Below are positions 13,891-28,974 of a stretch of 64,000 nucleotides of DNA, one piece after another. The stretch's first letter is position 1; each line of letters opens with the position of its first letter. Origin of the DNA: Acinetobacter sp. ANC 4173 (GTDB lineage: Bacteria > Pseudomonadota > Gammaproteobacteria > Pseudomonadales > Moraxellaceae). A program made the position numbers and the translations under genes. The stretch lies in NCBI RefSeq assembly GCF_004331255.1, contig NZ_SJOF01000003.1, forward strand, positions 124,001 through 188,000. Reading direction: 5' to 3'. Below the pieces are notes generated by a model. The model did no database searches, was not told where the DNA came from, and saw only the letters and a program-made list of their open reading frames with translations.

Positions 13891-13964
13891 TCATTTAAAT
13901 CGATAGGGCTTCTGTATCTGAGTACAATCCTTTAAGATGTATTCAGATATAAAAGGAGAAATCG

Positions 13965-14348
13965 ATGTCCCGCCAAGTTATTCATACTGAAAATGCCCCT
14001 GCTGCCATTGGTACTTATTCACAAGCAATTCTCGTTGGTGAAACACTTTATCTTTCAGGGCAAATCGGTTTAGATCCGTACAGTATGGAATTGGTAGAAG
14101 GCATTGAAGCGCAAATTCGCCGCGTTTTTGATAACTTAAAAGCCGTGTGTGAAGCTGCTGGTGGTTCACTTGCCGACATCGCCAAACTCAATATCTTTTT
14201 AACCGATTTATCTAATTTCCAACTGGTCAACCAAATTATGGGTGAATATTTTGCTCAACCTTACCCAGCACGTGCTGCGTTAGGTGTGGCAAGTCTACCG
14301 AAAGGAGCGTTGGTCGAGATGGATGGTATTGTGATTATTCCACAATAA
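13965..14348 (+). CDS. ridA: RidA family enamine/imine deaminase
   Basis: 127 residues, the standard YjgF/YER057c/UK114 length. It contains [26 protein letters not shown] and the C-terminal signature [24 protein letters not shown] with the conserved Arg that binds the 2-aminoacrylate carboxylate. RidA hydrolyses reactive enamines released by PLP enzymes such as threonine dehydratase. AAAGGAG lies 6 bases before the ATG. It follows spoT by 74 bases, a common pairing. Confidence 0.95.
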
Positions 14349-14413
14349 TTTATAAAACCCATTCAATCACCACCTTCAATCTTTAACTCTCAATCATATA
14401 AAGCTCTTGCGCA

Positions 14414-14436
14414 AAATCCGAGCAGAACTCGGATTT
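14414..14436 (+). terminator. Hairpin after ridA, possible terminator
   Basis: A perfect 9-bp stem AAATCCGAG / CTCGGATTT with loop CAGAA, 65 bases after ridA. The T run comes about 15 bases later, so its function as an intrinsic terminator is uncertain. Confidence 0.45.
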
Positions 14437-14502
14437 CCGCTCAGGTGGTATTTTTTTATTCAAATTCCCAATGATAATAATTCTCTTTTTAAATGAATGT
14501 TA

Positions 14503-14532
14503 TTGACAAACGATAACAATTATCAATAATAT
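14503..14532 (+). promoter_or_regulatory. bfd promoter with overlapping Fur box
   Basis: TTGACA at 14503-14508 and TAATAT at 14527-14532 (18-base spacer) make a strong sigma-70 promoter. The spacer holds ACGATAACAATTATCAATAAT, a close match to the Fur box with the palindrome GATAA-CAA-TTATC. A second Fur-like half, GATAATAATTCTC, lies at 14473-14485. This predicts iron repression of bfd, as known for bfd genes in other gammaproteobacteria. Confidence 0.75.
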
Positions 14533-14567
14533 TACTTATCGTATTTAAATTCATCTGGCTCGCAGTC

Positions 14568-14762
14568 ATGTACGTATGTTTGTGTCGTGGTATTACCGAT
14601 CAAGATATTAAAGATGCCGTTGCTAACGGTGCAGAAAGCTATCGCGAAATCCGTGATTTGCTTGATCTTGGCACATGCTGTGGTCGTTGTGCACCTGAAG
14701 CACGTGCCATCATTAGTGATGAAATTGCAGAAATTGCTGGACGTATTGCTGTCGCAGCCTAA
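14568..14762 (+). CDS. bfd: Bacterioferritin-associated ferredoxin Bfd
   Basis: A 64-residue [2Fe-2S] protein with the Bfd cysteine pattern: MYVCLCRGITDQDI (Cys4, Cys6) and LGTCCGRCAPEAR (CC-x2-C near 38-42). Bfd docks on bacterioferritin at the heme and passes electrons that release stored iron. It has a Fur-box promoter, is closed by a terminator, and lies next to bfr. The coupling of an iron-starvation promoter here with bfr downstream fits mobilisation of iron when iron is short. Confidence 0.95.
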   Translation: MYVCLCRGITDQDIKDAVANGAESYREIRDLLDLGTCCGRCAPEARAIISDEIAEIAGRIAVAA

Positions 14763-14812
14763 GAATAACAATACTTATAAATGTAATGGTCTTGATTGAT
14801 CATTCCTCCTCC

Positions 14813-14845
14813 CCCGCTTTTGACTCTAAGCGGGTTTCATTTTTC
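14813..14845 (+). terminator. Rho-independent terminator after bfd
   Basis: Stem CCCGCTT / AAGCGGG (14813-14819 and 14828-14834) followed by TTTCATTTTTC. It separates bfd from bfr, so the two are likely transcribed separately. Confidence 0.7.
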
Positions 14846-14938
14846 TAGCTTAATATCCAATTGTTTTTGATTACGATTTTCATTTGCCGTTCAATAAAGC
14901 ACTCGCCTTTCAGCATTTTCTTGTTTAAGATTTACAGA

Positions 14939-14968
14939 ATAACAGGCTGTTATGGTCTAACTTAGAAT
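14939..14968 (+). promoter_or_regulatory. Palindrome at the likely bfr promoter
   Basis: ATAACAGGCTGTTAT (14939-14953) is a perfect 15-bp inverted repeat. A TAGAAT at 14963-14968 could be the -10, and ATAACA within the palindrome the -35 (18-base spacing). The site would overlap the -35, as expected of a repressor or activator operator. The regulator is unknown; the site does not look like a Fur box. Confidence 0.5.
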
Positions 14969-15001
14969 TTTAAACCAGCATTGATTGATGGAGTTTATGC
15001 T

Positions 15002-15466
15002 ATGAAAGGCAATCGCGATGTGATTAACCAGTTAAATCAGGTGCTCTATCATCATTTAACTGCTATTAACCAATATTTTTTACATTCAAGAATGTTTAAT
15101 GACTGGGGTATTGAACAACTCGGCTCTGCTGAATACAAAGAATCAATCCGTCAAATGAAGCATGCCGATAAAATCATTGAACGGATTCTATTTTTGGAAG
15201 GCTTACCAAATTTACAACACCTCGGTAAACTTTATATCGGTCAGCACACCGTTGAAGTTTTAAATTGTGATATCCGCAAAGTAAAAGAGAACATTGAAAG
15301 TATTAAAACTGCAGTCACTTTAGCTGAGCAAACCTTAGACTATGTAACACGTGATTTAGTTCAAGAAATTCTAGAAAAAGAAGAAGAATACTGGGATTGG
15401 CTCACCACTCAACTAGATTTAGTCGAAAGTGTCGGCATTGAAAACTATATTCAAAGCCAACTCTAA
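15002..15466 (+). CDS. bfr: Heme-binding bacterioferritin subunit with altered ferroxidase site
   Basis: 154 residues starting MKGNRDVINQLN, with GGAG upstream; E. coli Bfr is 158 residues. The alignment is collinear without gaps at the N-terminus. The heme ligand Met52 (QMKHADKIIERILFLEGLPNLQ) is kept, as are His54 and Glu127. Four of the six di-iron ligands are changed: Glu18 to His, Glu51 to Gln, Glu94 to Val and His130 to Tyr. It should therefore bind heme and form the 24-mer but not oxidise iron itself. Heteropolymeric ferritins with heme-only and ferroxidase-only subunits are known in Pseudomonas putida and, to my recollection, Acinetobacter; a catalytic partner would be encoded elsewhere. 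Confidence 0.93.
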   Translation: MKGNRDVINQLNQVLYHHLTAINQYFLHSRMFNDWGIEQLGSAEYKESIRQMKHADKIIERILFLEGLPNLQHLGKLYIGQHTVEVLNCDIRKVKENIESIKTAVTLAEQTLDYVTRDLVQEILEKEEEYWDWLTTQLDLVESVGIENYIQSQL

Positions 15467-15508: not shown

Positions 15509-17137
15509 TTATTGAGCCGGTTCTAATAAAGATTCATAGCTTACATCGACATGTTTCAATTCTTTCAATAACCATAATTGGTGACGTGCTCCCTGTTCAT
15601 CCCCATTAAAAGCAAGAACACGTGCATATTTCAACAAATCATATTTGGTTGGATAACACTGCACCATTTCATGAATTTGCTGTAATTCAGCTTTACTCAA
15701 TATCGTGTTCGGGTTCAGTCGAATCCATGCAATTCTGCGACTCAGTTCATCCAAAACATAAATTCGGTCATGGTTGGTAATTTTTTCAGGGGTATGTTCA
15801 TAACGCATCGACTGATTCAGTTTAGGCACTGCCACCATATAATCACGATGAATTAACACCAAAAGCAAGCCACCAACCACAAATACCATTTGCGTATATT
15901 TAGGCGCTAAATTCCAAACTTTAAGTTGAGTTTCCTGCGACAGCACCAAACCCACAATAAAACCGAATGGTAATAAGAAGTAGGCATAATTCTGTGGATA
16001 TTCCAATAAGGCATGCACCAATACTGCCACAATCATCAGAATACCAATAACAGACTCTGTGGAATTCACTCGACTAATTAAGCGATATGCCAGATAAATT
16101 AAATACCCCAGAAATGGTACGCCTATCAGTAAGCCATTCCACACCAAGAAATCCAACACAAAATTATGTGAGCTTCGCACCCATTCAGGAATTCGATAAT
16201 ATTCACTTACTGCAACCTGAGCGACACTGGTCTGATTCCAGCCATAGCCAAACCATGGTCGGTCTGAAATAGCATAGAGCATTTGTTGCCAGATACCCAA
16301 ACGCAAATGCCCTGAGCTTGCACGTTCAATTGCTGTTGGCGAGTCCGCAATTGCCAAATGTGAAGCCTGTGCCAACCAATGGTCAACGATTGGCATAACT
16401 AAAATGAGTCCGATAAATAAGCCAACCCAAGTCAGCATTGCATACCATTTGAGGCGCAAATACCCTCTATATTGTTGATAGAAGAAATAAGCGACAAATA
16501 AGATACAGACAACCCATGACGTTCTAGACTGACTTAAGACCAATGCTATTAATATCGTTAATGAGCATAGACTGAGAATCCAAGCCTTAAGCTTACTTTT
16601 CTCAAATAAATACAGACTCGCCATTAACGAAAGAATAAGGAAAGTTGCCATATTATTCGGCTGGGCAAAATTCGCATAAGGACGATTACTGCGTAAATTT
16701 GCAATACCAGGAATGTGGTTTTCAATGGTGAGCCACTGACAGATTGCCATCACGCCCGAGAGTGTACCGACCACCAACAATACATAACTCAAATTCGTAA
16801 AAGTTTGCTCTCGGTCTTTTTGCGTCAAAGATAAGTTATAACCCAACACTATGCTTAACCAGAAAGCAAAAACAAAGAGACCTGAAATCAGTGCAATACT
16901 AAAGAAAAATTCCAGCCCAAACAGCCATTGCAGCAGAGGAATGAAAGCCATCCCCACCAAGGGGAGTGTCATCACTGGTAATTTTATTTTTTGCTGAAGA
17001 AAAATGGCGGTGAGTGCAAACAAGGATAGAAAAGCAAACAATTCACCTGTATAGGTTACCCACGGGCGATAGTGAACTGGCAAAAGCCAAGCCAGTGCAA
17101 TCAGCACACTGGCAAGTAAAGAAAGAATGAATTTCAT
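15509..17137 (-). CDS. pglL: PglL-type O-oligosaccharyltransferase / O-antigen ligase family protein
   Basis: A 542-residue polytopic membrane protein with about 11-12 hydrophobic segments and a C-terminal soluble part. The PglL_A-type region reads RSNRPYANFAQPNNMATFL. The Wzy_C ligase region includes LSQSRTSWVVC and the periplasmic loop GIWQQMLYAISDRPWFGYGWNQTS followed by EWVRSSHNFVLD, whose His (about residue 323) matches the conserved ligase histidine. The C-terminal 100 residues resemble the helical Wzy_C_2 tail. Such enzymes transfer a lipid-linked glycan to Ser/Thr of pilins or other periplasmic proteins. In Acinetobacter the equivalent gene normally lies close to pilA; here nine glycan genes intervene. 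Whether it modifies only pilin or many proteins cannot be told from sequence. Confidence 0.85.
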   Translation of the reverse strand: MKFILSLLASVLIALAWLLPVHYRPWVTYTGELFAFLSLFALTAIFLQQKIKLPVMTLPLVGMAFIPLLQWLFGLEFFFSIALISGLFVFAFWLSIVLGYNLSLTQKDREQTFTNLSYVLLVVGTLSGVMAICQWLTIENHIPGIANLRSNRPYANFAQPNNMATFLILSLMASLYLFEKSKLKAWILSLCSLTILIALVLSQSRTSWVVCILFVAYFFYQQYRGYLRLKWYAMLTWVGLFIGLILVMPIVDHWLAQASHLAIADSPTAIERASSGHLRLGIWQQMLYAISDRPWFGYGWNQTSVAQVAVSEYYRIPEWVRSSHNFVLDFLVWNGLLIGVPFLGYLIYLAYRLISRVNSTESVIGILMIVAVLVHALLEYPQNYAYFLLPFGFIVGLVLSQETQLKVWNLAPKYTQMVFVVGGLLLVLIHRDYMVAVPKLNQSMRYEHTPEKITNHDRIYVLDELSRRIAWIRLNPNTILSKAELQQIHEMVQCYPTKYDLLKYARVLAFNGDEQGARHQLWLLKELKHVDVSYESLLEPAQ

Positions 17138-17483
17138 GGGGTGCTACAGTTGCAGAACTGTGCATAGTGTAATTCAAAATGTTGGTTTTTCCGATCTTTC
17201 GTATTTGAAATATCATAATTTGGGAAAGATCTATATTGAATATTATCCTTAAAAATTCATCATACAACAACACTACTTTATAAAGAGAAACATTTTTCCA
17301 ATCTTCTTATATATTCTAAATTCTCAATAAAGCCTCAAAAATAACAACTAACCAAAGTAATGCAAAGGTATCTAATAGATAAAAGGATACAACTTAAAAT
17401 AATAATGCATCTACGCCCCTAACCAATTTTTTTTACTATTTTTTTCATTATGATGGAGTAATTAACTTTTTTCAGGACAGAGA
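17138..17483. other. 346-bp intergenic region, divergent promoters expected
   Basis: Lies between pglL (minus) and the GT4 gene (plus), so it must hold both promoters. It is very AT-rich. A TATGAT 30 bases before the plus-strand gene is a possible -10, but no convincing -35 partner was found. No RNA gene or repeat was recognised. Confidence 0.5.
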
Positions 17484-18614
17484 ATGAAGAAAAATATTGT
17501 TATTGTTACCCGCAACCTTCCGCCTCTAGTCGGTGGGATGGAACGATTAAATTGGCATATTGCAGATGAACTATCTCAAAATAATCAGATCACAATAATC
17601 AGCCATTCAGCAGCAGAACCTCTCGCACCGACCAACACTACATTTTATTTAGCACCACTCAATCCTCTCCCACTTTTTCTGGTTATAAGTTTTTTACGTA
17701 CTTTATGGTGCTGTCTTACCCAACCAGTTGATACACTTTTTGCAGGGAGTGGGCTCACGGCACCAATTGTTGTAATACTTGCCAAAATTTTCCGGAAAAA
17801 AAGTATTGTTTATATACATGGATTAGATATCGGTACCAACAATAAACTCTACAAGTTATGCTGGATTCCATTTATACGTCAGGCCGATCAGGTAATTACC
17901 AACAGTAGCCCAACACATCAACTTTGCATTCAAAAAAATATTTCAAAAGAAAAAATTAGCATTATTCACCCTGGTGTCTCTTATCCTCCAAAACCTAAAA
18001 ATGAAAAGATCATTCAAAATCTTAGAGAAAAATATAACTTAAACGATAAAAAAGTTCTGATTTCGGTAGGCCGACTGACCGAACGTAAAGGCATGAACGA
18101 GTTTATAGAGCAATGCCTATCAAAAGTAGTAACAGCTCGACCGAATACTGTTTTAATTATTATTGGTGACACGCCAAACCAATCACTCAATAAGAATCTG
18201 CAATCTAAAGAGATGATTTTAACGACCGCAAAAAAACATAATCTAATGAACAATATTATATTTACTGGCAACATTCAGGATGATGACATCCTTGCTAGTT
18301 TTTACTATTTGGCAGATCTGCATGTTTTTCCAGTCAAACATATTCCTCATGACCCTGAAGGTTTTGGTATGGTTGCCATAGAAGCCGCAGCACATGGCAC
18401 ACCGACTGTTGCTTTTGCGACAGGTGGCATTGTTGATGCTGTAAAACAAGATTATTCGGGATTATTGATTGCACCAAATAGCTACGATCTATTGACCCAT
18501 ACCATTCTAGATGCACTCAGAACTCAAATTATATCAGCAGACAATTGCCAGCAATATGCTGCTCAATTTAGTTGGCAATCCTTAAACAAAAAACTAGAGC
18601 AGACTATGAAATAA
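17484..18614 (+). CDS. GT4-family glycosyltransferase
   Basis: A 376-residue GT-B enzyme. The N-terminal domain starts MKKNIVIVTRNLPPLVGGMERLNWHIADEL, with the glycine-rich acceptor loop. The C-terminal donor domain has VLISVGRLTERKGMNEFIE and the E-x7-E motif in DPEGFGMVAIEAAAHGTP. It probably adds one sugar to a lipid-linked glycan on the cytoplasmic face. It is the only plus-strand gene of the glycan island, and its end overlaps the end of the convergent GT4 gene by 11 bases with no terminator between. Donor and acceptor are unknown. AGGACAG upstream is a weak ribosome site. Confidence 0.85.
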   Translation: MKKNIVIVTRNLPPLVGGMERLNWHIADELSQNNQITIISHSAAEPLAPTNTTFYLAPLNPLPLFLVISFLRTLWCCLTQPVDTLFAGSGLTAPIVVILAKIFRKKSIVYIHGLDIGTNNKLYKLCWIPFIRQADQVITNSSPTHQLCIQKNISKEKISIIHPGVSYPPKPKNEKIIQNLREKYNLNDKKVLISVGRLTERKGMNEFIEQCLSKVVTARPNTVLIIIGDTPNQSLNKNLQSKEMILTTAKKHNLMNNIIFTGNIQDDDILASFYYLADLHVFPVKHIPHDPEGFGMVAIEAAAHGTPTVAFATGGIVDAVKQDYSGLLIAPNSYDLLTHTILDALRTQIISADNCQQYAAQFSWQSLNKKLEQTMK

Positions 18615-19704
18615 GATAACCGTTCATCGTCTGAATATTTTCAGACCAGTCTGGGATATGAACATCGAGTTTTTGATAGTGCTGTAACTGCTGCATGACA
18701 CGATCAGCAAATTGCATGAAATTTCCTGATGAATAAAGTAATTCTTGATGCTTACCAACCAACTCAACCATATCTCCAATAGCAGTTGAAACAATGGTGA
18801 GTTCTGTTGCCAACATTTCATAGGCTTTTTGTGGAAAACAATACTGTCCAAAAGCATCGTCAGGAATACATAACACCCCAATATCAAGAGATTGAAACAA
18901 TGTGACGACTTGCTGATGCTGCAATAAACCCAAATAAATCACGCGCTCATCTTGGGGAATTGGTGTTTGTGCCTCGATAGGACCAGCCAAAACCAGATGT
19001 ACCCGTGGATCTCGCTGCTTAATGATGTCCCATGCTCGAAATAAATCCGTAATTCCCTTCATCTTGGTTAAACCACCTGCTGTACCAATGAGAGGAACAT
19101 CAAGCGGTAAATTTAACTGTTGGCGTGCCTGCTGTTGATCTCCAACCTTAAATAAGGCTTTATCAATCACACTTGGTAATGCCAAAACATGCTTAACTAT
19201 TGGATGCTCAGTACGGATTTTTTTTGCCAGACTATGACTCGTAGTCATCACCAAAGATGCCTGATCTAGCGCCTTATGGAACAAGTTTCTAAATAGAGGA
19301 ATTTTAGCCTGCCCATAAGATTCAAAATTATCGTATAAATCAGCCGCAAATGGTTTATCCAGTTTTTTTGCCAACCACGCTCCCCAAATAATATGAGGAA
19401 TATCTGAAGCTGCAATAATAATATCGGGCTGAAAATCAGCTATTTTCTTCAACAAATACAAAGGATAAAATAAAAGACCTACTTTCTTCATACCCAAATA
19501 ACTTTTTGAAGACCATATCAACTTTTTGTGAGCTGTTGTTTCATCCCAAACGCCTTCAGCATGAGACTGATAACTTAAACAGAAACCAGCGACCTCATGC
19601 CCGAGTAAACTCAATTGATGAGGCATTTCATATAAACGCGCATATTTGTCTAAAATGACATCTTTAGACATATATTGTCGTTTACACAAAAATGCGATTT
19701 TCAA
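18604..19704 (-). CDS. GT4-like glycosyltransferase
   Basis: A 366-residue GT-B fold protein. It has a Rossmann-type start (MKIAFLCKRQYMSKDVILDKYARLYEMPHQLSLLGHEV), a middle FAADLYDNFESYGQAKI segment, and a donor domain PLIGTAGGLTKMKGITDLFRAWD. The region near residue 290 (CFPQKAYEMLATELTIVST) is where GT4 enzymes carry E-x7-E; here only one Glu is clear. The start codon is TTG, directly after the glf stop, with GGAG 8-9 bases upstream. Last gene of the minus-strand glycan operon; it directly follows the mutase, so use of a galactofuranose acceptor or donor is possible but unproven. Confidence 0.8.
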   Translation of the reverse strand: MKIAFLCKRQYMSKDVILDKYARLYEMPHQLSLLGHEVAGFCLSYQSHAEGVWDETTAHKKLIWSSKSYLGMKKVGLLFYPLYLLKKIADFQPDIIIAASDIPHIIWGAWLAKKLDKPFAADLYDNFESYGQAKIPLFRNLFHKALDQASLVMTTSHSLAKKIRTEHPIVKHVLALPSVIDKALFKVGDQQQARQQLNLPLDVPLIGTAGGLTKMKGITDLFRAWDIIKQRDPRVHLVLAGPIEAQTPIPQDERVIYLGLLQHQQVVTLFQSLDIGVLCIPDDAFGQYCFPQKAYEMLATELTIVSTAIGDMVELVGKHQELLYSSGNFMQFADRVMQQLQHYQKLDVHIPDWSENIQTMNGYLIS

Positions 19705-20796
19705 TTATTTTTGCTCCAGAATTTTGCTCACAGCATTCAATGCTGCACCAACCACCTGATCCATATTGTAATAACGATACTCAGCCAGACGCCCAACAAA
19801 CGTTACGTTTTCCTCTGCATTTGCCAACATTTGATACTGCTTAAACAACTGCTCATTTTCAGTGCGAGGAATTGGATAGTACGGATCACCTTCATCTGTT
19901 GGATACTCTCTCACAATTGACGTAGATGAAGCCTGCTGACCGGTTAAATGCTTAAACTCAGTGATTCGAGTAAAATCATGATCATTTGGATAATTCACAG
20001 TACCCACACTTTGATACTGTTCAATATTTAAGTGTTCATGTTCAAAACGTAACGAGCGATAAGGCAAATGCCCAAATTGATAATCATAAAATGCATCTAT
20101 TGGGCCTGTATAAATTAAGTGATCGTACTCAATACCTTGCGCAATAAGATCTTTATACTCCGTACTCAATTTGACCGTAATATTTGGATGATTCAGCATA
20201 TTTTCAAACATGGCTGTATAACCCTGTAACGGCATCGCCTGATATGTGTCAGTGAAATAACGGTCATCGGTATTGGTACGTGTTGGTATACGTGCGGCTA
20301 CGCCTGCCTTTAACTGCGATGGATCTAGCCCCCACTGTTTTTTGGTGTAGTTGAGAAAGAATTTTTCATATAAATCACGTCCAACCGAGTTGAGTACTAC
20401 ATCTTCACTGGTCTGAACAGGGTCACGCGGTTCGCGAACTTTCTCAAAATACTCAGCGGCTTGTTGTTCAGTTAAATCTAAATCATAAAGCTGATTTAAG
20501 GTATCTCGGTTAATAGGAAATGGATACTCTTTTCCATTGACTACCCCACGCACCCGATGTTCATAAGGACGCCACTCAGTAAACTGTGATAAGTAATTAA
20601 AAATACGTTCACTATTGGTATGAAAAATATGTGGACCATATTGATGAATCAGAATGTCATGAGAATCTTTGACATCGTAAGCATTGCCCCCAATATGATC
20701 TCGACGATCAACAACCAAAACCTGATGCCCTGCTTCTGCCAATTCACGTGCTGATACGGCACCTGCAAAACCCGCCCCAACGATTAAAAATTTCAT
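19705..20796 (-). CDS. glf: UDP-galactopyranose mutase
   Basis: A 363-residue flavoenzyme that interconverts UDP-galactopyranose and UDP-galactofuranose. The N-terminal FAD motif is MKFLIVGAGFAGAVSARELAEAG, then VVDRRDHIGGNAYD. The conserved YGPHIFHT, KQWGLDPSQL, RIPTRTNTDDRYFTDTYQAMP and C-terminal FVGRLAEYRYYNMDQVVGAAL all match the Glf family. Its presence shows the glycan made here probably contains Galf. It is followed without a gap by a GT4 gene and preceded by a GlfT-like GT2 gene, a natural producer-user pair. AAGG lies upstream of the ATG. Confidence 0.96.
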   Translation of the reverse strand: MKFLIVGAGFAGAVSARELAEAGHQVLVVDRRDHIGGNAYDVKDSHDILIHQYGPHIFHTNSERIFNYLSQFTEWRPYEHRVRGVVNGKEYPFPINRDTLNQLYDLDLTEQQAAEYFEKVREPRDPVQTSEDVVLNSVGRDLYEKFFLNYTKKQWGLDPSQLKAGVAARIPTRTNTDDRYFTDTYQAMPLQGYTAMFENMLNHPNITVKLSTEYKDLIAQGIEYDHLIYTGPIDAFYDYQFGHLPYRSLRFEHEHLNIEQYQSVGTVNYPNDHDFTRITEFKHLTGQQASSTSIVREYPTDEGDPYYPIPRTENEQLFKQYQMLANAEENVTFVGRLAEYRYYNMDQVVGAALNAVSKILEQK

Positions 20797-20808
20797 ACAA
20801 CCTTACCT

Positions 20809-21714
20809 TTATAAATCCCATTGATCATGACGTTTTCCTGTATTACAAAATACAGCATCATAAAAACCAGCAAAAAAAGCCTTTACTTGTTTTAGAGAGT
20901 TTTTTTCATTCAGCAAAGCTGCAAACAATCGAATAAATGATGCTGGAATCGTTTGTGTATAATATTTAAATCCATAATATTTTTTGGCGATTAAGAGTCG
21001 ATTCCGTGTATCGTAATAACGCTTCCACGCTACCAAATTCAGACATGTAATTTTCTTCCCTAAAAAATTAAATTCATAACGATCTGATTTTGGATGTTCA
21101 ATTTGGCTTTGCCCGCAAATAAAAATTTTGTGACCCACATGTTGTGCACGCATACAATATTCAACATCATCCGCTGCAATAAAATATGAAGCATCTGGCA
21201 AACCAATGTTTTGATAAATTTCTTTACTGGTTAAGAAACCTAGAAACGGCAAAGATTGCACTTCGGCTAGCTCAGAAACCTGTTTTTTTAGATGGACGGT
21301 CTTATTTTCAGCTAATAATGTAGTTGCCCATGCAGTATCTTCTCCATTTACAGCCAGCGAACCATAAATATGCTCAGGTGTTGCGTGTCGCATAATTTCT
21401 TCTAAAGCGGTAGGATGAGGAACAGCATCATCATCCATCATCCATACATAGTCTGCACCTTGCTCAAATGCATACTGCATACCAGCAGAAAAACCACCTG
21501 CCCCACCCGTATTTTCTTTCAAAGCAATTAACTGAGTTTTTGGCTGCTCTAGCCAACCATTTTGTTTTAATATTTCAATTGTTCCATCTGTTGAAGCATT
21601 GTCAACAATCAAGGTTTTTGATGGCTGCTGTGTTTGTGCTGATAATGCTTGTAGACATTGCAACAATAATTGCTTTCTATTGAATGTAACAACAACGACC
21701 ATAAAATTTTGCAT
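20809..21714 (-). CDS. GT2 glycosyltransferase, galactofuranosyltransferase (GlfT)-like
   Basis: 301 residues with a GT-A fold: MVVVVTFNRKQLLLQCLQAL, IVDNASTDGTIEIL, NTGGAGGFSAGMQYAFEQGADYVWMMDDDAVPHPTAL. The DDDA metal motif with the GGAGGF stretch is typical of rhamnosyl- and galactofuranosyl-transferases (GlfT1/GlfT2 and relatives). A catalytic-base-like FIAADDVEYCMRA follows near residue 180. Next to glf, so Galf from UDP-Galf is the most likely donor; this is inference from context and family. Confidence 0.85.
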   Translation of the reverse strand: MQNFMVVVVTFNRKQLLLQCLQALSAQTQQPSKTLIVDNASTDGTIEILKQNGWLEQPKTQLIALKENTGGAGGFSAGMQYAFEQGADYVWMMDDDAVPHPTALEEIMRHATPEHIYGSLAVNGEDTAWATTLLAENKTVHLKKQVSELAEVQSLPFLGFLTSKEIYQNIGLPDASYFIAADDVEYCMRAQHVGHKIFICGQSQIEHPKSDRYEFNFLGKKITCLNLVAWKRYYDTRNRLLIAKKYYGFKYYTQTIPASFIRLFAALLNEKNSLKQVKAFFAGFYDAVFCNTGKRHDQWDL

Positions 21715-21722
21715 AATTTATC

Positions 21723-22697
21723 TCAAATCTTCCGAATATAAGAGCTACAACCTAGCTTATATTTCAACCGCCTAAGTTGATGATTCACCCATCGTTTAGG
21801 CAACATTAACCATTCTATAATAAGTGGATGAATCCAATTAGGTAGTTTCTGAAAAAATGGATCACTTGGTCGTGAATTTGAATCGAGTGTTCGTGCATAT
21901 AGCCCAATTTTTGTCCAATAAATTGGTGCTTGATAAAATGCTAAATGTAAATTTCGCCATAATCCAATTGCTAAAAATTGCTTATTTTTTTCCTCTAACT
22001 GATAATATTCATAATATTTTAAAATATTCTCAGTATTTTTCTTAAAAGCTGGATAATAAATATAGGGCGTCGACAACCGTTCATTAGAATGTTGAAACCA
22101 AACTCCAACCACTTGATCCTTATATATCCATTTACATTTTTTATTTAATAAAACAGAAAAAAACCATTCAAAATCTTCTCCATTATTATTAAATTCATTC
22201 CAAATTAAATCTTCTATAGATATTTTTTTATATAAATTATTTAATGTTGTTCCTATTACTTCTCCAGAAAGAATTGCTTCTGCACCACTATTATATTTAT
22301 GTAAATAACTTACAGGATATTTACCTCCTAAATCATCTAGGCAAAAAATCATATAAGTACTTAAGTCGGCATCTGAATTATATAGCTCAGTATATTGTTG
22401 ATAAGCTATTTCAGATATTAAATAATCATCATCATCCAAGAAGCGAATTAAATCTCCTTGTGCAATAGAAAGTCCATAATTCCTTGCCTTAGAAACATTC
22501 CCTTCCTCTAATTTATAATATTTGACCAAAGGATGTTGGAAGGATGAACTCTCGTCAAAATCCATGCCAGACTTTCCATTCAAAATCACAAGGATTTCTG
22601 TTTGGACTTTTGCATCATCAATCAGTGCACTTTTGATTGCCCGTTGTAAAAGTTCAGGACGACAACCTGCACTTGGAATAATTATAGTAACCAACAT
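21723..22697 (-). CDS. GT2-family glycosyltransferase
   Basis: 324 residues. Residues 1-110 are a GT-A domain: MLVTIIIPSAGCRPELLQRAIKSAL, ILVILNGKSGMDF, EGNVSKARNYGLSIAQGDLIRFLDDDDYL with the DxD metal site. The second half is rich in Trp and Tyr (GEDFEWFFSVLLNKKCKWIYKDQ) and lacks membrane segments. Probably an inverting transferase adding an internal sugar. Only 3 bases separate it from the upstream GT4 gene. The donor sugar cannot be told. The coding sequence is strongly AT-rich compared with glf. Confidence 0.82.
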   Translation of the reverse strand: MLVTIIIPSAGCRPELLQRAIKSALIDDAKVQTEILVILNGKSGMDFDESSSFQHPLVKYYKLEEGNVSKARNYGLSIAQGDLIRFLDDDDYLISEIAYQQYTELYNSDADLSTYMIFCLDDLGGKYPVSYLHKYNSGAEAILSGEVIGTTLNNLYKKISIEDLIWNEFNNNGEDFEWFFSVLLNKKCKWIYKDQVVGVWFQHSNERLSTPYIYYPAFKKNTENILKYYEYYQLEEKNKQFLAIGLWRNLHLAFYQAPIYWTKIGLYARTLDSNSRPSDPFFQKLPNWIHPLIIEWLMLPKRWVNHQLRRLKYKLGCSSYIRKI

Positions 22698-22700
22698 ATA

Positions 22701-23816
22701 CTAATTTATCCCTGTAATTCTTTTAAATTGTTCAAAACAATTTTTCATAGATAATCTTTCTTTATCTTTTTCTGTAATTTCATACGGGTACATATATATT
22801 TTTTCAATAGTATTAACTAATAATTTATAATTATTTTTCTCTACTAACCCCTGATTTAACTGACCTGAAGATAATTGATATTCAATTCCAGAAGATGAAT
22901 TATAAGATACAACAGGAACATCTAATTTTATCGATTCGGATATCACCAATGGAAACCCTTCACTTTCTGAGGTTAAAATAAGAATTTTACTTTTTTTAAT
23001 ATAATATTCTGGATTTTTTTTCCAACCTAAAAATATTATTTTATTCTCTGCATTTTTATCCTTAACAAAATTCACAAGCTCCTCTTTTAATATACCATCA
23101 CCGACTATTGCCATTTTCCCTTTTAAATTACTGTCTAAAAAAGCTTGTATTGCAATTTTAGGCCTCTTCTCAGAAGAGAATCTACCAACAAAAATCATAT
23201 CATACTCTTTGTCAATATCTTCATTTTCAATATTTAAAAATCTTCTTTCCGAAACACCATTTGGAATAAATTCCACAATATAAGGGTTACTAAATTCCTT
23301 ATAAAAATCAACCAACCCTTCATTAACAACTATTATATTTCTATTATTAAATAGTTTATAAAAAACTTTTTTCTCTATTTTCGATCGTCTATATTCATTC
23401 AAATATGAAAAAATATTTTTAGAGCCCACTCTTTTGAATACATTGAAATTTGTTAGATCACCATGAACCCATAACCAAGTATTTTTTTTGAAAAAACAAT
23501 CTGCCAACCAATACCCAAAAGCATAGCTAATAACAGTTAGAACTGGATCTAATTCACATTCTAAATCAAAGATTAATTTTCTATCTTTATCAGATATATC
23601 TTTACCTTTATTTCTAAACAAACTGTTATTAAATTTTATATTCAGATTAACTATATTCAACCCTTCCGGTATTTCCATACCTTGCTCTTTACCATCTAGC
23701 AAAAGCATCGTCACAGAATATCCATTATTAATAAACTCCTCTGCCAACTCTAAATTAATTCTTTCAGCACCACCACCATTTAAATGATCACAAACAAATA
23801 TAATATTTTGAGGCAT
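22701..23816 (-). CDS. GT4-family glycosyltransferase
   Basis: 371 residues, GT-B fold. Start MPQNIIFVCDHLNGGGAERINLELAEEF carries the GGAE acceptor loop. The donor domain has MIFVGRFSSEKRPKIAIQAF, MAIVGDGILKEELVNFV, and the E-x7-E site SESEGFPLVISESIKLDVPVV. It resembles WbbX/PglA-type transferases that build short oligosaccharides. The gene has very high AT content and Lys/Asn/Ile-rich usage, in contrast to flanking housekeeping genes, which suggests horizontal origin. Confidence 0.85.
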   Translation of the reverse strand: MPQNIIFVCDHLNGGGAERINLELAEEFINNGYSVTMLLLDGKEQGMEIPEGLNIVNLNIKFNNSLFRNKGKDISDKDRKLIFDLECELDPVLTVISYAFGYWLADCFFKKNTWLWVHGDLTNFNVFKRVGSKNIFSYLNEYRRSKIEKKVFYKLFNNRNIIVVNEGLVDFYKEFSNPYIVEFIPNGVSERRFLNIENEDIDKEYDMIFVGRFSSEKRPKIAIQAFLDSNLKGKMAIVGDGILKEELVNFVKDKNAENKIIFLGWKKNPEYYIKKSKILILTSESEGFPLVISESIKLDVPVVSYNSSSGIEYQLSSGQLNQGLVEKNNYKLLVNTIEKIYMYPYEITEKDKERLSMKNCFEQFKRITGIN

Positions 23817-23829
23817 AAATATTCCTGAA

Positions 23830-25536
23830 TCATAATTTTAAAATATATTTACATTGTTCTATTGCACTCTCTCGATGTGCAATAATAACCATCGTTTTTT
23901 CCCCACTCAATCCTTGAATTGCCTCATTGACCGCTTGCTCTGTTTCTGTGTCTAAAGCACTGGTTGCTTCATCCATAAACAACACTTGTGGATCTCTATA
24001 TAAAGCCCGAGCAATCCCGATACGTTGACGCTGTCCACCAGAAAGCATAACTCCTCGCTCACCCACAAAAGTATCATAACCATCTTTTAAATTATTTACG
24101 ATAAACTCATGGATTTGTGCTGCCTTTGCAGCTTTTATAATAGCATTCATGTCAATATTATCTTTTGGAACACCAAATGCAATATTTTGAGTGATGGTAT
24201 CATCTGCTAAGTAAATAAATTGTGGAATATAACCAACCAAGCTCTGCCACGAATGCACATTGGTTTTATTAATAACAATACCATCTACCAATAACTCGCC
24301 CTGCTGTGGTTCTAAAAGCCCAAGCAAGATATCCATCAGTGTACTTTTACCCGAGCCACTTTTTCCAATAATTCCAAGACTACTCTTACAAGGAATAACG
24401 AGGCTAAAATTCTCCAATACGTTTTTATGTGGGTCTGTTGGGTAAGCATAACTTACATTTCGCAGCTCAATGCTATGTTTAAAGCTAAGTTGTGGGTAAT
24501 TCTGCTTTTGATCTACTAGAGTAGGCAAATACAAATCATCTAATATTTTATTGGCCGAATCCAAAGAAAAACGCATACTTGAGATTGCACGATAAATGTT
24601 TTGTGCTGCGGGTAACATGCGATATGCAGCAAAACCAAATAAGCCCAATGATGGCAATATTGTAGAAATATTTTGATTATTTAATACTAAGCCTATTGCT
24701 AAGCCAATAATTGCACAATACCCCATTGCTTCAACTAGCAATAAGGGAACGTTCCCCACGGTTTGATTGGCTGCTAAATGTCTTGCAAAAATTCGAGATT
24801 GCTCTTGGAAATGTTTTAAATACCCTTGATCTGCATGGTTAATTTTAACATCTTTGATACCACCCAAGACTTCATTGCAGGCTTTATAGCGTTCACTATT
24901 AGCATAATGAAACTCTTGACCAATTCGACCTAAAAATTTTCTTACACCCAAGTAGATTAAAACATATACCATTAAAAACAAGATAAATGCAGTGATTGCC
25001 ATATATGGATTATGCATAAATATCAACATAATCATAGCAAAAATAACCAGGCCATAAGATATTATGATCATGATAGGCTGAATAATATTATCAACCAGCT
25101 GATCAATCTGTGAAAGAATGTTTTTTGTTAGTTCCGAACTATTTTTCTGAATAAAAAATTCATAATCTTGCTTTAAATATATCGAAAGTAATCGAGTCGA
25201 TAAATAATGGCGCTGTAAACTTACAAAGCGACTTGTTCCATAAGAGTGAATCACTTTAAAAATAGCTGACAGAATAATCAGCACCATTGAAACCAAGCCT
25301 AATTTAATAATAAAATTAGTATAAGATGTAGCATTTAAAAATTCATAAAAATAATAAAATTTTTGATCATTTTGAATAATACTAGGGCTAGAAAGAACGG
25401 CTAAAAATGGCATAATCGAAATCACACCAAGTGTTTCTAAAAATGCCATTAAAATAGTTAAAATAAGAACAATAACAAATTTTCTTTTTTCTAATTGAGT
25501 TAAGGTTTTCCACAAACGATAAATAATATCCAGCAT
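23830..25536 (-). CDS. ABC transporter (PglK/MsbA-like lipid-linked oligosaccharide flippase)
   Basis: 568 residues: an N-terminal six-helix transmembrane domain (~1-330), then an ATPase domain. Walker A is IGKSGSGKSTLMD near residue 390, the signature is MLSGGQRQRIGIARAL, Walker B is QVLFMDEATSALD, and the switch His is VIIAHRES. Fused half-transporters of this kind in glycan clusters flip undecaprenyl-diphosphate oligosaccharides (PglK) or lipids (MsbA). There is no Wzx flippase here, so this is the likely flippase for the glycan built by the neighbouring transferases. It begins 5 bases after the GT2/GtrB-like gene. Confidence 0.88.
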   Translation of the reverse strand: MLDIIYRLWKTLTQLEKRKFVIVLILTILMAFLETLGVISIMPFLAVLSSPSIIQNDQKFYYFYEFLNATSYTNFIIKLGLVSMVLIILSAIFKVIHSYGTSRFVSLQRHYLSTRLLSIYLKQDYEFFIQKNSSELTKNILSQIDQLVDNIIQPIMIIISYGLVIFAMIMLIFMHNPYMAITAFILFLMVYVLIYLGVRKFLGRIGQEFHYANSERYKACNEVLGGIKDVKINHADQGYLKHFQEQSRIFARHLAANQTVGNVPLLLVEAMGYCAIIGLAIGLVLNNQNISTILPSLGLFGFAAYRMLPAAQNIYRAISSMRFSLDSANKILDDLYLPTLVDQKQNYPQLSFKHSIELRNVSYAYPTDPHKNVLENFSLVIPCKSSLGIIGKSGSGKSTLMDILLGLLEPQQGELLVDGIVINKTNVHSWQSLVGYIPQFIYLADDTITQNIAFGVPKDNIDMNAIIKAAKAAQIHEFIVNNLKDGYDTFVGERGVMLSGGQRQRIGIARALYRDPQVLFMDEATSALDTETEQAVNEAIQGLSGEKTMVIIAHRESAIEQCKYILKL

Positions 25537-25541
25537 CTTAA

Positions 25542-26393
25542 TTATTCGCTATCTTTATACATAAGGCTAGTAATTTGTTCTGAAATAAGCCCCATCAGAA
25601 AAATCATAATACTTCCCGTATATAATAAAGCACTCATATTGGTAAAACGATTATACTCATACAATGTATAACCATACCAACCAGTTGCTATCATAAATAA
25701 TAAAATAGCAATAGGTAGAAACATTTTTAGAGGTGAGTACAATGTTGCTATCTTAAAAATAATGAGTACAAAACGAGTACCATCTCGCAATAAGCGAATA
25801 TGGCTTTTGCCTATACGCTTTGCAGCATGAATTGGAATATAAGTAACCGAATACCCAGCTCTAAAAAATGCCATGGTGCTCGTTGTTGGATAAGAAAAAC
25901 CATTAGGTAATAGATATAAAAACTCACGAAACTTTTCAGCTCTCACGGCCCGAAAACCCGAGGTTAAATCCTCGACCTGATGTTCTGTCATATAAGTTGC
26001 AAGCTTATTATAAAAAGCATTGGCAAAACCACGGCCAAGACTGGCTTGCGACCCTTTTTGACGAGCACCAACAACTAAATCATAACCTTGTTCTAATTTT
26101 TTTATAAATTGAGAAATATCGGCAGGGTCATGCTGACCATCAGCATCCATAAATATAATGATTTCACCTTGAGCATGACGAGCACCTGTTTTAATCGCAG
26201 CACCATTCCCTTTCGAATATGGATGTGAGATCACTTTTACTCCTGCCTGTTCTGCAACTTGTTTTGTTTGGTCGGTAGAGCCATCATTGACTACAATAAT
26301 TTCAGCATCAGGAACAATCTTTACAATATCCCCAATAGTTAATCCTATTGCTGCAGCTTCATTTTTTGCAGGAAGAACGATACTTAATTTCAT
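25542..26393 (-). CDS. DPM1/GtrB-like polyprenyl-phosphate glycosyltransferase
   Basis: 283 residues. The GT2 domain carries MKLSIVLPAKNEAAAIGLTIGDI, IIVVNDGSTDQTKQVAE, SHPYSKGNGAAIKTGARHAQGEIIIFMDADGQHDP and the DPM-type EDLTSGFRAVRAEKF. Two hydrophobic segments follow at the C-terminus (~220-270). Such enzymes load a single sugar onto polyprenyl phosphate for later use by a GT-C enzyme outside the membrane. The gene directly follows the GT-C/TPR gene (13 bases), which supports a donor-maker and donor-user pair. The sugar is unknown. Confidence 0.88.
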   Translation of the reverse strand: MKLSIVLPAKNEAAAIGLTIGDIVKIVPDAEIIVVNDGSTDQTKQVAEQAGVKVISHPYSKGNGAAIKTGARHAQGEIIIFMDADGQHDPADISQFIKKLEQGYDLVVGARQKGSQASLGRGFANAFYNKLATYMTEHQVEDLTSGFRAVRAEKFREFLYLLPNGFSYPTTSTMAFFRAGYSVTYIPIHAAKRIGKSHIRLLRDGTRFVLIIFKIATLYSPLKMFLPIAILLFMIATGWYGYTLYEYNRFTNMSALLYTGSIMIFLMGLISEQITSLMYKDSE

Positions 26394-26406
26394 TTTCTAT
26401 TGACTC

Positions 26407-28335
26407 TTAATTTATCTGTTCCGCTTGCAAATCATTTTGCATATCGTGCCTTGTCTGTAGAATGATTTTTTCATAATATTGCTGTGAACGTTTTAATGTT
26501 TCTTTCGGCTGTTTACGATATAACATTTCCACCTGACTTAACATTTTTAATGCTTGCTGTAAATAACCCGCATTCCCCAACTTAATAACCATCTGCAATC
26601 CATCATCTATATCTGCCAATAACACGAATGATTGACTAAAATACTGATAAGCTACGTCTGGTTTATGCTGCTGAAGTAAAATTTGTCCTTGCAGAAAAAT
26701 AGCATAACCTTGAAAATCTTTTATATTTACATAAGATGGATTCTCAAGCATTACAGACAAAATATTAATTAAATCATCACCATATTGCTGAATTATTTGT
26801 GGTTTATTCAATGCATGTCCTGTTAAATCACGAATTGCAATAGCTGCTTGAATATCAGCCCGATGGATGCGTATCAGCTGTTGAGTACGAATAAAATCTT
26901 GTTTTTTAACAGCCCCTTCTTCTATTTTTTGCAACAACAATTGCAATGCGAGCAACCCACTTTCTGGTCGTTTTTCCAAAGCTTGTTCTACAACCTGATT
27001 TGCTTCTTTAAAATGTCCATTTTGGGTAAGCACAGTTGCAATAACGATTTGTGCACGTGGAGAGTTAGGGCTATTTTGAGCCCAATACAACATCAGTTTT
27101 TGACTGTCCGACCAAAGAATAGTGCGTTGCCATGTCATAGTTGCCAGAAATATGAGAATCAATAAGCTAATGAATATAACTATGCTTGGTTTTATATGTT
27201 CAGATAACGTGTACAACCCTACTGCTAAAGGTAAGAATAAGAAAATAGCCGCAATATAATTACGATGCTCAAAGTACAACTCCAAACCAATCACAGTCGA
27301 TTCCATAAGATGTGCGGCAAAGAAAAATAAAATTGCCAATGCAAAAAATGGGTATTTTTTTCTTAATAATAGACTCGAAATAAACAAACTTGATAGAAAT
27401 AGAATTGAATATAATGTACTGATTGGAGAGAACCAATATTTTGAAACTAAAAATCCATCCTGAAAAAACCCATAACCTTCAATTCTTGGAATATACAATT
27501 GTGCTAAGTAGTCAACAACAATACGACCTTCCGTTAGTAAACGTTCTTTTTGATTAAAATTGCGATTTGACCAAGGATCGTCTGAAAAATCAATATAATG
27601 CAGCAACATGAATGTAATAGCTAAAGATGGTAACCATAAACAGACTGTTCGCCATTGCCATTTTGGTAGATTATTTTTATTCGGGTTACAAAATTCTATT
27701 ACTAAAATTAGTAAAGGCAGTAGTGCACCATTTTCTTTACTATAGGTCGCAAGCAAAGTACCCAATCCTATCGAAAATGTCATCAGTGTATAGCCAAGAT
27801 ACTGCTTACTACTAAGTAATGTGCGCCCCTTAAAATAACCCACGATAGCCAACAAACTAAATAATAAAGGTAATTGAGCCATACGCTGTATGACATACAA
27901 TGTGGTAGACATCATTAAGGGATGTAACATCCAAAAACTTGCACTTAATAAGGCAATCCATGCGATTTTTTGTTCTTTTACTTCACCATAAGCACGTAAA
28001 ATTAGACTCGTCACCCAATACAACAGTAGACCACACAATAAATGGATAACTAAATTAACAACTTTGAAAGGAAAAGCATTTCCGGCAAACCAAGCATCCG
28101 CTTGGGGCACAAACGTAAGTAATGAAATTGGACGACCTGTTGGCCCCGCATTGCCATTACTAACAAATTTATATGCATTCTCCCAATCATGCATATCGCC
28201 ATATTTACTCATTTCTCCTAAATTAGGAAAATCATCGAATAAAAACCCACCTTTTAAACCCGTGTAATATACTAAAACTACTAATAGTGTAATAAAGAAC
28301 AAGATAATAATAGGCAAAACACGATTATTTAACAT
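26407..28335 (-). CDS. GT-C membrane glycosyltransferase-like protein with C-terminal helical repeats
   Basis: 642 residues. An N-terminal membrane segment is followed by a first periplasmic loop with GGFLFDDFPNL (Asp34, Asp35), the acidic pair typical of GT-C enzymes (PMT, TMTC, TfpW). Many further membrane helices run to about residue 400, with LHPLMMSTTLYVIQRM and EHRNYIAAIFLFLP matching TMTC-type loops. The last ~230 residues are helical, TPR-like and presumably periplasmic (RAQIVIATVLTQNGHFKEANQVVEQALEKRP). It is the first gene after pilA on the same strand, so a pilin-modifying role is likely, perhaps using the polyprenyl-phosphate sugar made by the next gene. Not recognised as PglL, TfpO or PglS. 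Confidence 0.72.
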   Translation of the reverse strand: MLNNRVLPIIILFFITLLVVLVYYTGLKGGFLFDDFPNLGEMSKYGDMHDWENAYKFVSNGNAGPTGRPISLLTFVPQADAWFAGNAFPFKVVNLVIHLLCGLLLYWVTSLILRAYGEVKEQKIAWIALLSASFWMLHPLMMSTTLYVIQRMAQLPLLFSLLAIVGYFKGRTLLSSKQYLGYTLMTFSIGLGTLLATYSKENGALLPLLILVIEFCNPNKNNLPKWQWRTVCLWLPSLAITFMLLHYIDFSDDPWSNRNFNQKERLLTEGRIVVDYLAQLYIPRIEGYGFFQDGFLVSKYWFSPISTLYSILFLSSLFISSLLLRKKYPFFALAILFFFAAHLMESTVIGLELYFEHRNYIAAIFLFLPLAVGLYTLSEHIKPSIVIFISLLILIFLATMTWQRTILWSDSQKLMLYWAQNSPNSPRAQIVIATVLTQNGHFKEANQVVEQALEKRPESGLLALQLLLQKIEEGAVKKQDFIRTQQLIRIHRADIQAAIAIRDLTGHALNKPQIIQQYGDDLINILSVMLENPSYVNIKDFQGYAIFLQGQILLQQHKPDVAYQYFSQSFVLLADIDDGLQMVIKLGNAGYLQQALKMLSQVEMLYRKQPKETLKRSQQYYEKIILQTRHDMQNDLQAEQIN

Positions 28336-28403
28336 TCAGGATCCATTACAAGGCTTATCTGTACAAATTTATTCATGCATGTTTTTCATAGTCCACTGAT
28401 CAA

Positions 28404-28431
28404 TAAAAAAGCGACCCGAAGATCGCTTTTT
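28404..28431 (-). terminator. Rho-independent terminator of pilA
   Basis: AAAAAAGCGA-CCCGAAGA-TCGCTTTTTT, a perfect 10-bp stem 22 bases after the pilA stop, usable in both directions. The downstream glycan operon therefore needs read-through or its own promoter in the 68 bases before 28335. Confidence 0.88.
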
Positions 28432-28452
28432 TGATTCAATTAACCGTGTGTG

Positions 28453-28893
28453 TTAGTTAAGAGAAAGTGCTTTAGGTACATATTTCGCATCGATTGTACC
28501 GCCATTTTGTTTAATTGTACCGTTAGAAAGTACATTCATGATCAATGTTTTAGTATTAAGATTACCAGCAACTGAAGTTCCTGCAGAACCAGAACCATAA
28601 GTTGCAGTCACTGTACAACCTGTCGTTGCACTTGGTGCGCCAGTTGTAATTACGACTTGAGAGTACTTACCTGTGACCGTGTTATTTGCTGTGTTAACTG
28701 TATCAGCACAATTATTACTTTGCAGATTGTCTGCAATGGTAACTTTTAGACCATCAGTCAATGATACACCTTCTGATGCTTGTGAACGAGCGATATAGTC
28801 ATTGTAAGCAGGAATCGCAATTGCCGCTAAAATACCAATAATGGCCACAACGATCATTAATTCAATAAGAGTGAAACCCTTTTGAGCGTTCAT
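28453..28893 (-). CDS. pilA: Major type IV pilin PilA/ComP-like
   Basis: A 146-residue prepilin. MNAQKG leader, then [36 protein letters not shown], the canonical class IVa pilin helix with Glu5. Two cysteines (about residues 66 and 96 by reading NNCADT and TTGCTV) could form a central disulfide. The C-terminus reads [10 protein letters not shown], without the usual C-terminal Cys loop or a terminal Ser. The ATG has GGAG six bases upstream; a GTG four codons earlier is less likely. It has a sigma-54 promoter and its own terminator, consistent with the high expression expected of a main pilin. It may correspond to PilA or to the competence pilin ComP. Confidence 0.92.
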
Positions 28894-28974
28894 AACATTC
28901 TCCACAAATGTTTTGTTTAGTTTTTTTTAAGCTTTGTAAAGCAAGAAGCGCTTTTGTATGCTTTGTTTATAATG

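Follow-up and report, generated by a model that had tools for sequence, protein, structure and literature searches.

A probable TfpW-type pilin-accessory cassette with its own glycan donor pathway in Acinetobacter

The function of the protein TfpW in pilin glycosylation was reportedly described by Kus in 2008. The gene order pilA-tfpW-tfpX has been described (PMC12369383 and PMC11841053). According to the latter, TfpW acts in pilin glycosylation, this modification protects P. aeruginosa-group strains from pilus phages, and a terminator directly behind the pilin gene is a common feature of pilin-accessory cassettes. Here we analyse a stretch of 64,000 nucleotides from Acinetobacter sp. ANC 4173 (contig NZ_SJOF01000003.1, positions 124,001 to 188,000; hereafter the window), which carries a block of glycan-assembly genes behind the major type IV pilin gene pilA. 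The block is probably a TfpW-type pilin-accessory cassette with its own donor pathway. Its targeting to pilin is well supported by gene context; the priming, extension and flipping of the glycan are steps that we infer.

The genome of the window (27 contigs, 3.84 Mb) belongs to Acinetobacter. The original prediction, made from the bare sequence, placed nine genes between pglL and pilA: five ordinary glycosyltransferase (GT) genes, glf, and genes for a PglK-like ABC flippase, a GtrB-like GT2 and a GT-C/TPR protein. All nine open reading frames (ORFs) are present and intact at this place. The family labels, taken from Pfam and NCBIfam, are supported, that of the GT-C coming from structure and TfpW similarity. 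Eight genes lie 3' of pilA on the same strand, in the order GT-C/TPR, gtrB, pglK, GT4, GT2, GlfT1-like GT2, glf and GT4, and the gaps from pilA onwards are 117, 13, 5, 13, 3, 8, 12 and 0 nt. The ninth, the GT4 gene at 17484-18614, is convergent to the other eight. The features are as follows.

28453..28905, minus strand: pilA, major type IV pilin and presumed acceptor (GTG at 28905; likelier start ATG at 28893)
28405..28433 (approximate limits), minus strand: hairpin resembling a Rho-independent terminator, located between the pilA and GT-C genes
26407..28335, minus strand: TfpW-like GT-C protein of 642 aa with a C-terminal TPR domain, presumed pilin (oligo)saccharyltransferase
25542..26393, minus strand: GtrB/ArnC/DPMS/AglJ-like polyprenyl-phosphate glycosyltransferase of 283 aa (GT2 family match), presumed initiator
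23830..25536, minus strand: PglK-like ABC flippase of 568 aa (ABC exporter family match)
22701..23816, minus strand: GT4 glycosyltransferase, variable part, G+C about 0.28-0.29
21723..22697, minus strand: GT2 glycosyltransferase, variable part
20809..21714, minus strand: GT2 related to the galactofuranosyltransferase GlfT1 and to rhamnosyltransferases, below both cut-offs
19705..20796, minus strand: Glf, UDP-galactopyranose mutase
18604..19704, minus strand: GT4 glycosyltransferase
17484..18614, plus strand: GT4 glycosyltransferase, convergent
15509..17137, minus strand: pglL, general O-oligosaccharyltransferase, a conserved neighbour probably outside the cassette

The linkage of the block to pilin was followed in 119 Acinetobacter genomes (G and L numbers denote genomes and loci). 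The GT-C gene occurs in 17 of them, two weak TPR-only matches (G001, G114) having been dropped from the 19 genomes returned by the search; pglL occurs in 115. A pilin gene lies directly upstream of the GT-C gene in all 17 carriers (16 and the window). The block adjoins pglL in 12 carriers and stays with pilA in the five where pglL lies elsewhere (G084, G039, G113, G098 and G055). Comparison of 80 pglL regions agreed with the expectation that pglL and pilA are usually close in this genus: the gap between pglL and the pilA-side flank gene has a median of 2,479 nt (797-15,069) in the 53 GT-C-free regions with both genes, against 8,851-15,325 nt in seven regions with a GT-C gene (12,020 nt in the window), while the remaining 20 did not contain the two genes together.

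The association with pilin extends beyond the genus. A wider GT-C profile scan gave at least 593 pattern matches and 557 confirmed relatives, from which the best 80 loci were taken with about 10 kb on each side where the contig allows; their titles are mostly gammaproteobacterial, some betaproteobacterial. A pilin gene lies on the same strand within 1.5 kb upstream of the GT-C gene in 58 of these best 80 loci, including 52 of the 74 outside Acinetobacter and all six Acinetobacter loci, four of which (L147-L149, L160) are on contigs already among the 17 carriers. Of the other best-80 loci, two have a divergent pilin gene, six have one about 7 kb away, six are truncated by a contig edge and eight show none. 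The background amounts to 15 pilin motifs in the remaining 1.216 Mb.

Variations of this layout were seen in several genera. Two tandem GT-C/TPR genes follow one or two pilin genes in Rhodanobacter, Dyella and Frateuria (L174, L182, L194, L207, L211, L219, L222 and others), and a strong gtrB lies outside the locus in the five such genomes searched (L174, L182, L194, L219, L222). In the Pseudomonas loci L231-L236 the direct neighbour of pilA is of one of two kinds: a close GT-C accompanied by a GtrB-like gene (L232 and, by eye, L231), or a shorter divergent GT-C/TPR gene of 548-549 aa (L233-L236).

Co-divergence was measured as the correlation of gene distances across 18 Acinetobacter carriers, reduced to 17 in comparisons with gtrB, from which G087 dropped out; L150 was excluded for lack of species markers. 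Species distance, taken from LemA, TpmD and a 186-aa neighbour, was held constant, and 2,000 permutations were run. The partial correlation is 0.52 for GT-C and pilA (1/2,000 permutations) and 0.57 for gtrB and pglK (0/2,000). It is -0.05 for GT-C and gtrB, -0.04 for GT-C and pglK, and -0.06 each for pglL with gtrB and with pglK. The distances of pglL follow those of the species (r=0.74), those of the other genes far less (0.07-0.22). We read this pattern as an acceptor module, made of pilin and transferase, and a donor module, made of GtrB and PglK.

The GT-C nature of the protein encoded at 26407-28335 is indicated by its predicted structure and its similarity to TfpW. Pfam and NCBIfam give no GT-C family match for it, and Pfam returns weak TPRs alone, without a Wzy_C match. 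Residues ~2-417 of the predicted model (mean pLDDT 88.8, pTM 0.86) match the GT-C transferases AglB, Pmt4, STT3 and ArnT (Z 16.1-17.6) and residues ~420-640 match TPR proteins, PilW and PilF included (Z about 11), in a comparison whose own warning is that helical proteins can reach Z about 13 through general shape. The matches do not separate transferases of oligosaccharides (AglB 3waj, Z 17.6, 4.6 Å over 315 aa) from those of monosaccharides (Pmt4 9i5l, Z 16.9, 4.6 Å over 329 aa; ArnT 5f15, Z 16.2, 4.5 Å over 313 aa). They come from the second of two structure comparisons; in Foldseek TPR proteins rank first, with no GT-C among the 50 matches listed. Invariant in 20 GT-C sequences are D34-D35, E352 and E356-H-R-N, the acidic pair lying in the presumed first periplasmic loop.

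Relationship to TfpW was assessed with an Acinetobacter-only GT-C profile (A1) and one that includes four divergent Pseudomonas rows (A5). The search of 398 Pseudomonadaceae genomes gave matches at E<=1e-8 in 25. The match in the genome taken as PA7 is a 641-aa protein encoded between a pilin and a 245-aa protein, which is the order pilA-tfpW-tfpX. With A5, this TfpW gives E=7.5e-17 when whole genomes are searched and 4.7e-23 when the target is a small ORF set; A1 matches it with E=2e-13 over about 200 N-terminal residues. The GT-C/TPR protein is, as judged by these profiles, a distant member of the TfpW family.

Between the pilin and GT-C genes, a hairpin followed by a T-run is found in 16 of the 17 Acinetobacter carriers, compared to 10 of 1,600 base-shuffled gaps. 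Its presence, together with the same layout in known pilin-accessory cassettes, supports the cassette reading. The hairpin of the window was not listed by a separate scan of the window, which weakens the terminator call. A sigma-70 promoter scan gave 55 sites against a mean of 58.7 in shuffles, and Rfam gave two tRNAs and nothing else.

Mature PilA has 141 aa and ends in ...PKALSLN, without a C-terminal Ser or a C-terminal Cys loop. A missing C-terminal Cys loop and a PKA-x end are shared by the pilins paired with the GT-Cs closest to that of the window (window 28453-28905, L057, L062, L065, L118, L146). In most carriers whose GT-C is more distant the loop is retained, with L150 (51% GT-C) as exception. 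The share of Ser/Thr in the mature pilin does not set carriers apart: it is 0.13-0.21 in carriers, among them the window, and 0.13-0.25 in the rest.

The other conserved part of the block is the pair gtrB and pglK. The order pilA, GT-C, gtrB and pglK is common to the carriers; three of them (G084, G065, G087) have additional genes within it. Both gtrB and pglK are present in the same 18 of the 119 genomes; the pglK search returned a nineteenth, G060, at 38% identity. GtrB resembles the polyprenyl-phosphate sugar synthases ArnC, DPMS and GtrB in sequence, with AglJ (TIGR04182) as its best NCBIfam match (3.2e-35). Its model shows a GT2 domain and two long C-terminal helices that match solved synthases (DPMS 5mlz, Z 27.2, 5.8 Å over 270 aa; ArnC 9bhe, Z 25.9, 3.5 Å over 273 aa). 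GtrB proteins of the other Acinetobacter carriers are 77-91% identical to that of the window, whereas the genes behind pglK vary, as expected for an initiating enzyme. Seventeen of the 18 gtrB genomes also have the GT-C gene. The exception is G031, whose 8.5-kb contig C79 (L248) carries gtrB and pglK without a GT-C gene, with a Schlafen/AlbA_2 gene between them and an ATPase-like gene after (by eye).

Outside Acinetobacter, gtrB accompanies the closer GT-C genes. Whole-genome searches of seven genomes that have no same-strand gtrB behind the GT-C gene found exactly one strong copy in each (429-490 bits; next best 95); at L193 a strong gtrB lies inside the locus on the opposite strand. The Pseudomonadaceae test covered 23 of the 25 GT-C matches together with G166 and G263, two of four more distant ones; G119 and G505, the matches omitted, both have gtrB beside the GT-C gene. 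A single gtrB at E<=1e-60 is found in each of the 16 genomes with a close GT-C and in none of the nine whose GT-C is divergent, PA7 being one of these nine. This suggests a sugar other than D-arabinofuranose (D-Araf) here. A GtrB-linked branch stands beside the D-Araf TfpW. In one carrier (L136:6357-8913) three further ORFs separate the TfpW-like gene from gtrB; they encode a second AglJ-like GT2 (TIGR04182, 1.7e-63, below cut-off), a protein of 121 aa and a PMT_2-like GT-C, and may form a nested decoration module.

Behind this pair the genes vary. In 95 hand-picked proteins Pfam recognises GT2, GT4, Stealth, sugar epimerases, methyltransferases, nucleotidyltransferases and UDP-sugar dehydrogenases. 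A homologue of the convergent GT4 ends many Acinetobacter islands, and a homologue of the GT4 at 18604..19704 lies beside glf in the related glf islands L061, L062, L065, L067, L127 and L129. Compared to the window, G055 has gtrB 91% and pglK 95% identical, yet LemA 73% and PglL 43%, which indicates that pieces move between species. We infer that the genes behind gtrB and pglK may be exchanged between strains as in capsule loci. Galactofuranose (Galf), anticipated in the glycan from the outset, is supported by Glf, which passes the TIGR00031 equivalog cut-off (395.1 vs 303.75 bits); the GT2 at 20809..21714 matches GlfT1 with 6.9e-31 and 107.6 bits against a cut-off of 330.

As first noted, the island itself has no initiating phosphoglycosyltransferase (PGT) and no Wzx: no such family in Pfam or NCBIfam matched its genes. 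A phmmer search seeded with the genome's own two PGTs found none in the best 80 loci or in the fetched Acinetobacter island stretches, the genome's own capsule-like region apart, with the limits that the L138 and L139 islands extend past the fetched stretch and that small ORFs were possibly dropped. The Pfam summary of the 95 variable proteins holds the 25 commonest of 70 families and leaves room for a PGT or Wzx of another type. The highest GtrA score in the genome, 21.8 bits for a 413-aa frame, stays under the cut-off of 26.1, and no GtrA flippase is found in the block. With no PGT found in the islands and no GtrA above cut-off in the genome, it is simplest to suppose that GtrB initiates the glycan on undecaprenyl phosphate (Und-P) and that PglK flips it.

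The search for a PglC- or WecA-type initiator elsewhere, which the original prediction had proposed, found two PF02397 PGTs. Both lie on contig C23, within a region that resembles a capsule locus ("capsule" being a reading of the gene set). The genome has one PF00953 gene, in the window at ~50.6-51.2 kb; we take it to be MraY, and WecA was accordingly rejected as initiator. The C23 region (L132-L133, C23:90000-129999) encodes the two PGTs, two EpsG-type polymerases, one Wzx-like flippase and one MatE-like protein just below cut-off, and looks as if two polysaccharide loci stood side by side. The claim that the pathway must borrow a lipid-linked first sugar is not supported: the GtrB-like enzyme resembles polyprenyl-phosphate sugar synthases and could be the initiator. 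Borrowing is conceivable, given the two PGTs elsewhere in the genome.

These elements can be combined in a model that we rate as somewhat more likely than not. GtrB would charge Und-P with the first sugar. The variable cytoplasmic GTs, with Glf supplying UDP-Galf, would extend this lipid-linked sugar to a short oligosaccharide, which PglK would flip. The TfpW-like GT-C/TPR protein would then transfer the glycan to Ser/Thr of the PilA encoded just upstream, as linkage, TfpW homology, predicted fold and co-divergence with pilA suggest. The genes pilA and GT-C with the terminator between them would form a shared core, gtrB and pglK a conserved donor module, and the genes behind would be exchanged between strains. 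PglL next door would serve its own capsule-derived pathway. A bolder form of the model, which we rate as plausible but somewhat short of probable, is a PGT-free bacterial protein O-glycosylation: GtrB would prime undecaprenyl monophosphate, soluble GTs would lengthen the monophosphate-linked sugar, the ABC protein would flip the oligosaccharide and the TfpW/AglB-like GT-C would transfer it en bloc to type IV pilin, in exchangeable "pilin serotype" cassettes. The archaeal AglJ/AglB system, with its monophosphate-linked glycans, offers a precedent. From the short-glycan pathway first put forward, the main model keeps the idea of glycan assembly that probably serves to glycosylate pilin, and with it Galf, the flippase and the lack of a PGT; it abandons PglL as ligase and the borrowed primer.

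Several observations weigh against the model. We know of no bacterial pathway in which Und-P-linked oligosaccharides are an established intermediate. Two equivalog cut-offs are missed, that of AglJ TIGR04182 by GtrB (122 vs 325 bits) and that of PglK NF050066 by the ABC protein (358.2 vs 1000 bits). The two PGTs of the genome could supply a primer, and a GtrA flippase is present in each of the four further GT-C genomes that were searched for it, Acinetobacter ANC 3903 included. A strong gtrB is held by 38 of the best 80 loci, the others being without a strong local copy, and the whole-genome follow-up covered seven of the no-local or wrong-strand loci. Downstream of the GT-C gene, pglK is found in 12 of the best 80 loci, six of them Acinetobacter and 6 of 74 elsewhere (L161 among the latter at 25% identity). 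Its rarity outside Acinetobacter means that other flippases must serve there. L174 and L219 have pglK without a local gtrB, and in P. viridiflava (L151) pglK is missing and a further GT (44% to the convergent GT4) is present. The 125-nt pilA/GT-C stretch of the window folds just 1.45 sd better than dinucleotide shuffles. GT-C also correlates with pglL (partial correlation 0.35; 13/2,000 permutations), and plain adjacency may make neighbours co-diverge.

The first alternative, which we consider unlikely, divides the block between two pathways: GtrB and a flippase would make a periplasmic Und-P-hexose, which the GT-C would use, in the manner of TfpW, to decorate pilin with single sugars, and the GTs and PglK would make a separate undecaprenyl-diphosphate-linked oligosaccharide whose primer comes from a borrowed PGT. 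Pairs of GtrB and a GT-C are classical components of O-antigen glucosylation (PMC11127046). The two PGTs and the GtrA of other GT-C genomes fit this view, and loci such as L180 and L202 carry pilin, GT-C and gtrB with no further gene of the set behind on that strand. A monosaccharide alone is conceivable for the shortest loci. It is opposed by the occurrence of pglK with gtrB in all 18 Acinetobacter gtrB genomes and their co-divergence, and by the searches that found no PGT in the islands and no GtrA above cut-off in the genome.

The original prediction had an oligosaccharide built on a borrowed capsule primer, flipped by PglK and transferred by PglL to pilin or other proteins. PglL (15509-17137) does match PglL_A, Wzy_C and Wzy_C_2, all above cut-off, and its proximity to the block in 12 of 17 carriers and its correlation with GT-C would agree with such a role. 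The block follows pilA, not pglL, and PglL is therefore rejected as first-choice ligase; being a TfpW relative, the GT-C/TPR protein is the better candidate. PglL does not co-diverge with GtrB or PglK, and Acinetobacter PglL glycans are reported as capsule-derived (PMC12645811). Transfer by PglL thus appears improbable. Still more remote is the idea that the product of the block is a surface polysaccharide or lipooligosaccharide decoration whose genes stand next to pilA by accident or for regulatory reasons. Loci of that kind also contain GT2/GT4, glf and ABC genes, and pilin glycosylation is here a prediction from genes, but pilin adjacency across genera, the terminator cassette layout, TfpW homology and GT-C/pilA co-divergence speak against it.

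The pglL-pilA interval of other Acinetobacter genomes holds further genes. Many short intervals have a ~240-aa ORF beside pglL, and two that were tested belong to the TfpX/TfpZ pilin accessory family (NF041437). A second PglL-like ORF occurs in 14 of the 80 pglL regions. The pglL of Acinetobacter sp. A7.4 (NZ_JAKVIM010000007.1) is 92% identical to that of the window. L068:6798-13999 encodes a tyrosine-recombinase-like protein (516 aa) followed by unknowns of 645 and 688 aa, and ORF sets alike by ORF length only are found at or near the pilA-pglL interval in L059, L060, L070, L071, L080, L087 and L108, in several Acinetobacter species. Sulfatase-fold (one weakly phosphoethanolamine transferase-like) or beta-lactamase-family genes lie in the intervals of L058:3939-7700, L107:4531-8287 and L116:3354-4556 and are possible other pilin-accessory genes.

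A TfpW-like/GtrB/PglK pilin cassette of Acinetobacter was not found in titles and opening lines of abstracts of mostly open papers, and an earlier description is possible. If the reading of the block as such a cassette is correct, Acinetobacter would have a route of pilin glycosylation besides TfpO, TfpM and PglS/PglL, independent of capsule, and the TfpW family would extend widely through proteobacteria and include a large GtrB-linked branch. A glycan cassette that can be exchanged at pilA would be in keeping with phage escape. Were the monophosphate-primed model true, a missing PGT could no longer be read as a missing initiator, which would alter the genes to be sought when bacterial glycan pathways are predicted.

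Among known systems, the TfpW cassette of P. paraeruginosa PA7/Pa5196 shares with the window a GT-C with an acidic pair in its presumed first periplasmic loop, encoded directly behind pilA, profile homology and the accessory cassette layout. It differs in that TfpW draws on D-Araf from another locus (PMC12369383) and in the lack of a gtrB match at E<=1e-60 in the genome taken as PA7; the window cassette holds gtrB, pglK, GTs and glf within it and has no TfpX-sized ORF. TfpO/PilO, TfpM and PglS are likewise encoded beside their pilin substrate. TfpO, TfpM and PglS belong to a WaaL-like superfamily (PMC12645811), whereas the GT-C lacks a Wzy_C match and PilA ends in Asn, without C-terminal Ser. 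General O-glycosylation by the adjacent PglL is also periplasmic, but it uses capsule units (same source) and does not follow the block. The Campylobacter pgl locus resembles the block in having the ABC flippase PglK with several GTs in a protein-glycosylation locus; the block has neither PglB nor PglC and its flippase is below the PglK cut-off. The GtrA-GtrB-Gtr systems combine a GtrB-type synthase with a GT-C as here, unlike the window in that no GtrA is present in the block or above cut-off in the genome, an ABC flippase being found instead, and in that the block is pilin-linked. Haloarchaeal AglJ/AglB N-glycosylation differs in that GtrB is below the AglJ cut-off and the acceptor here is pilin, presumably O-linked. 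The two systems are alike in placing a polyprenyl-phosphate hexose synthase first and in using a GT-C transferase, and the PGT-free route, if true, would be a bacterial counterpart of haloarchaeal monophosphate-linked glycosylation.

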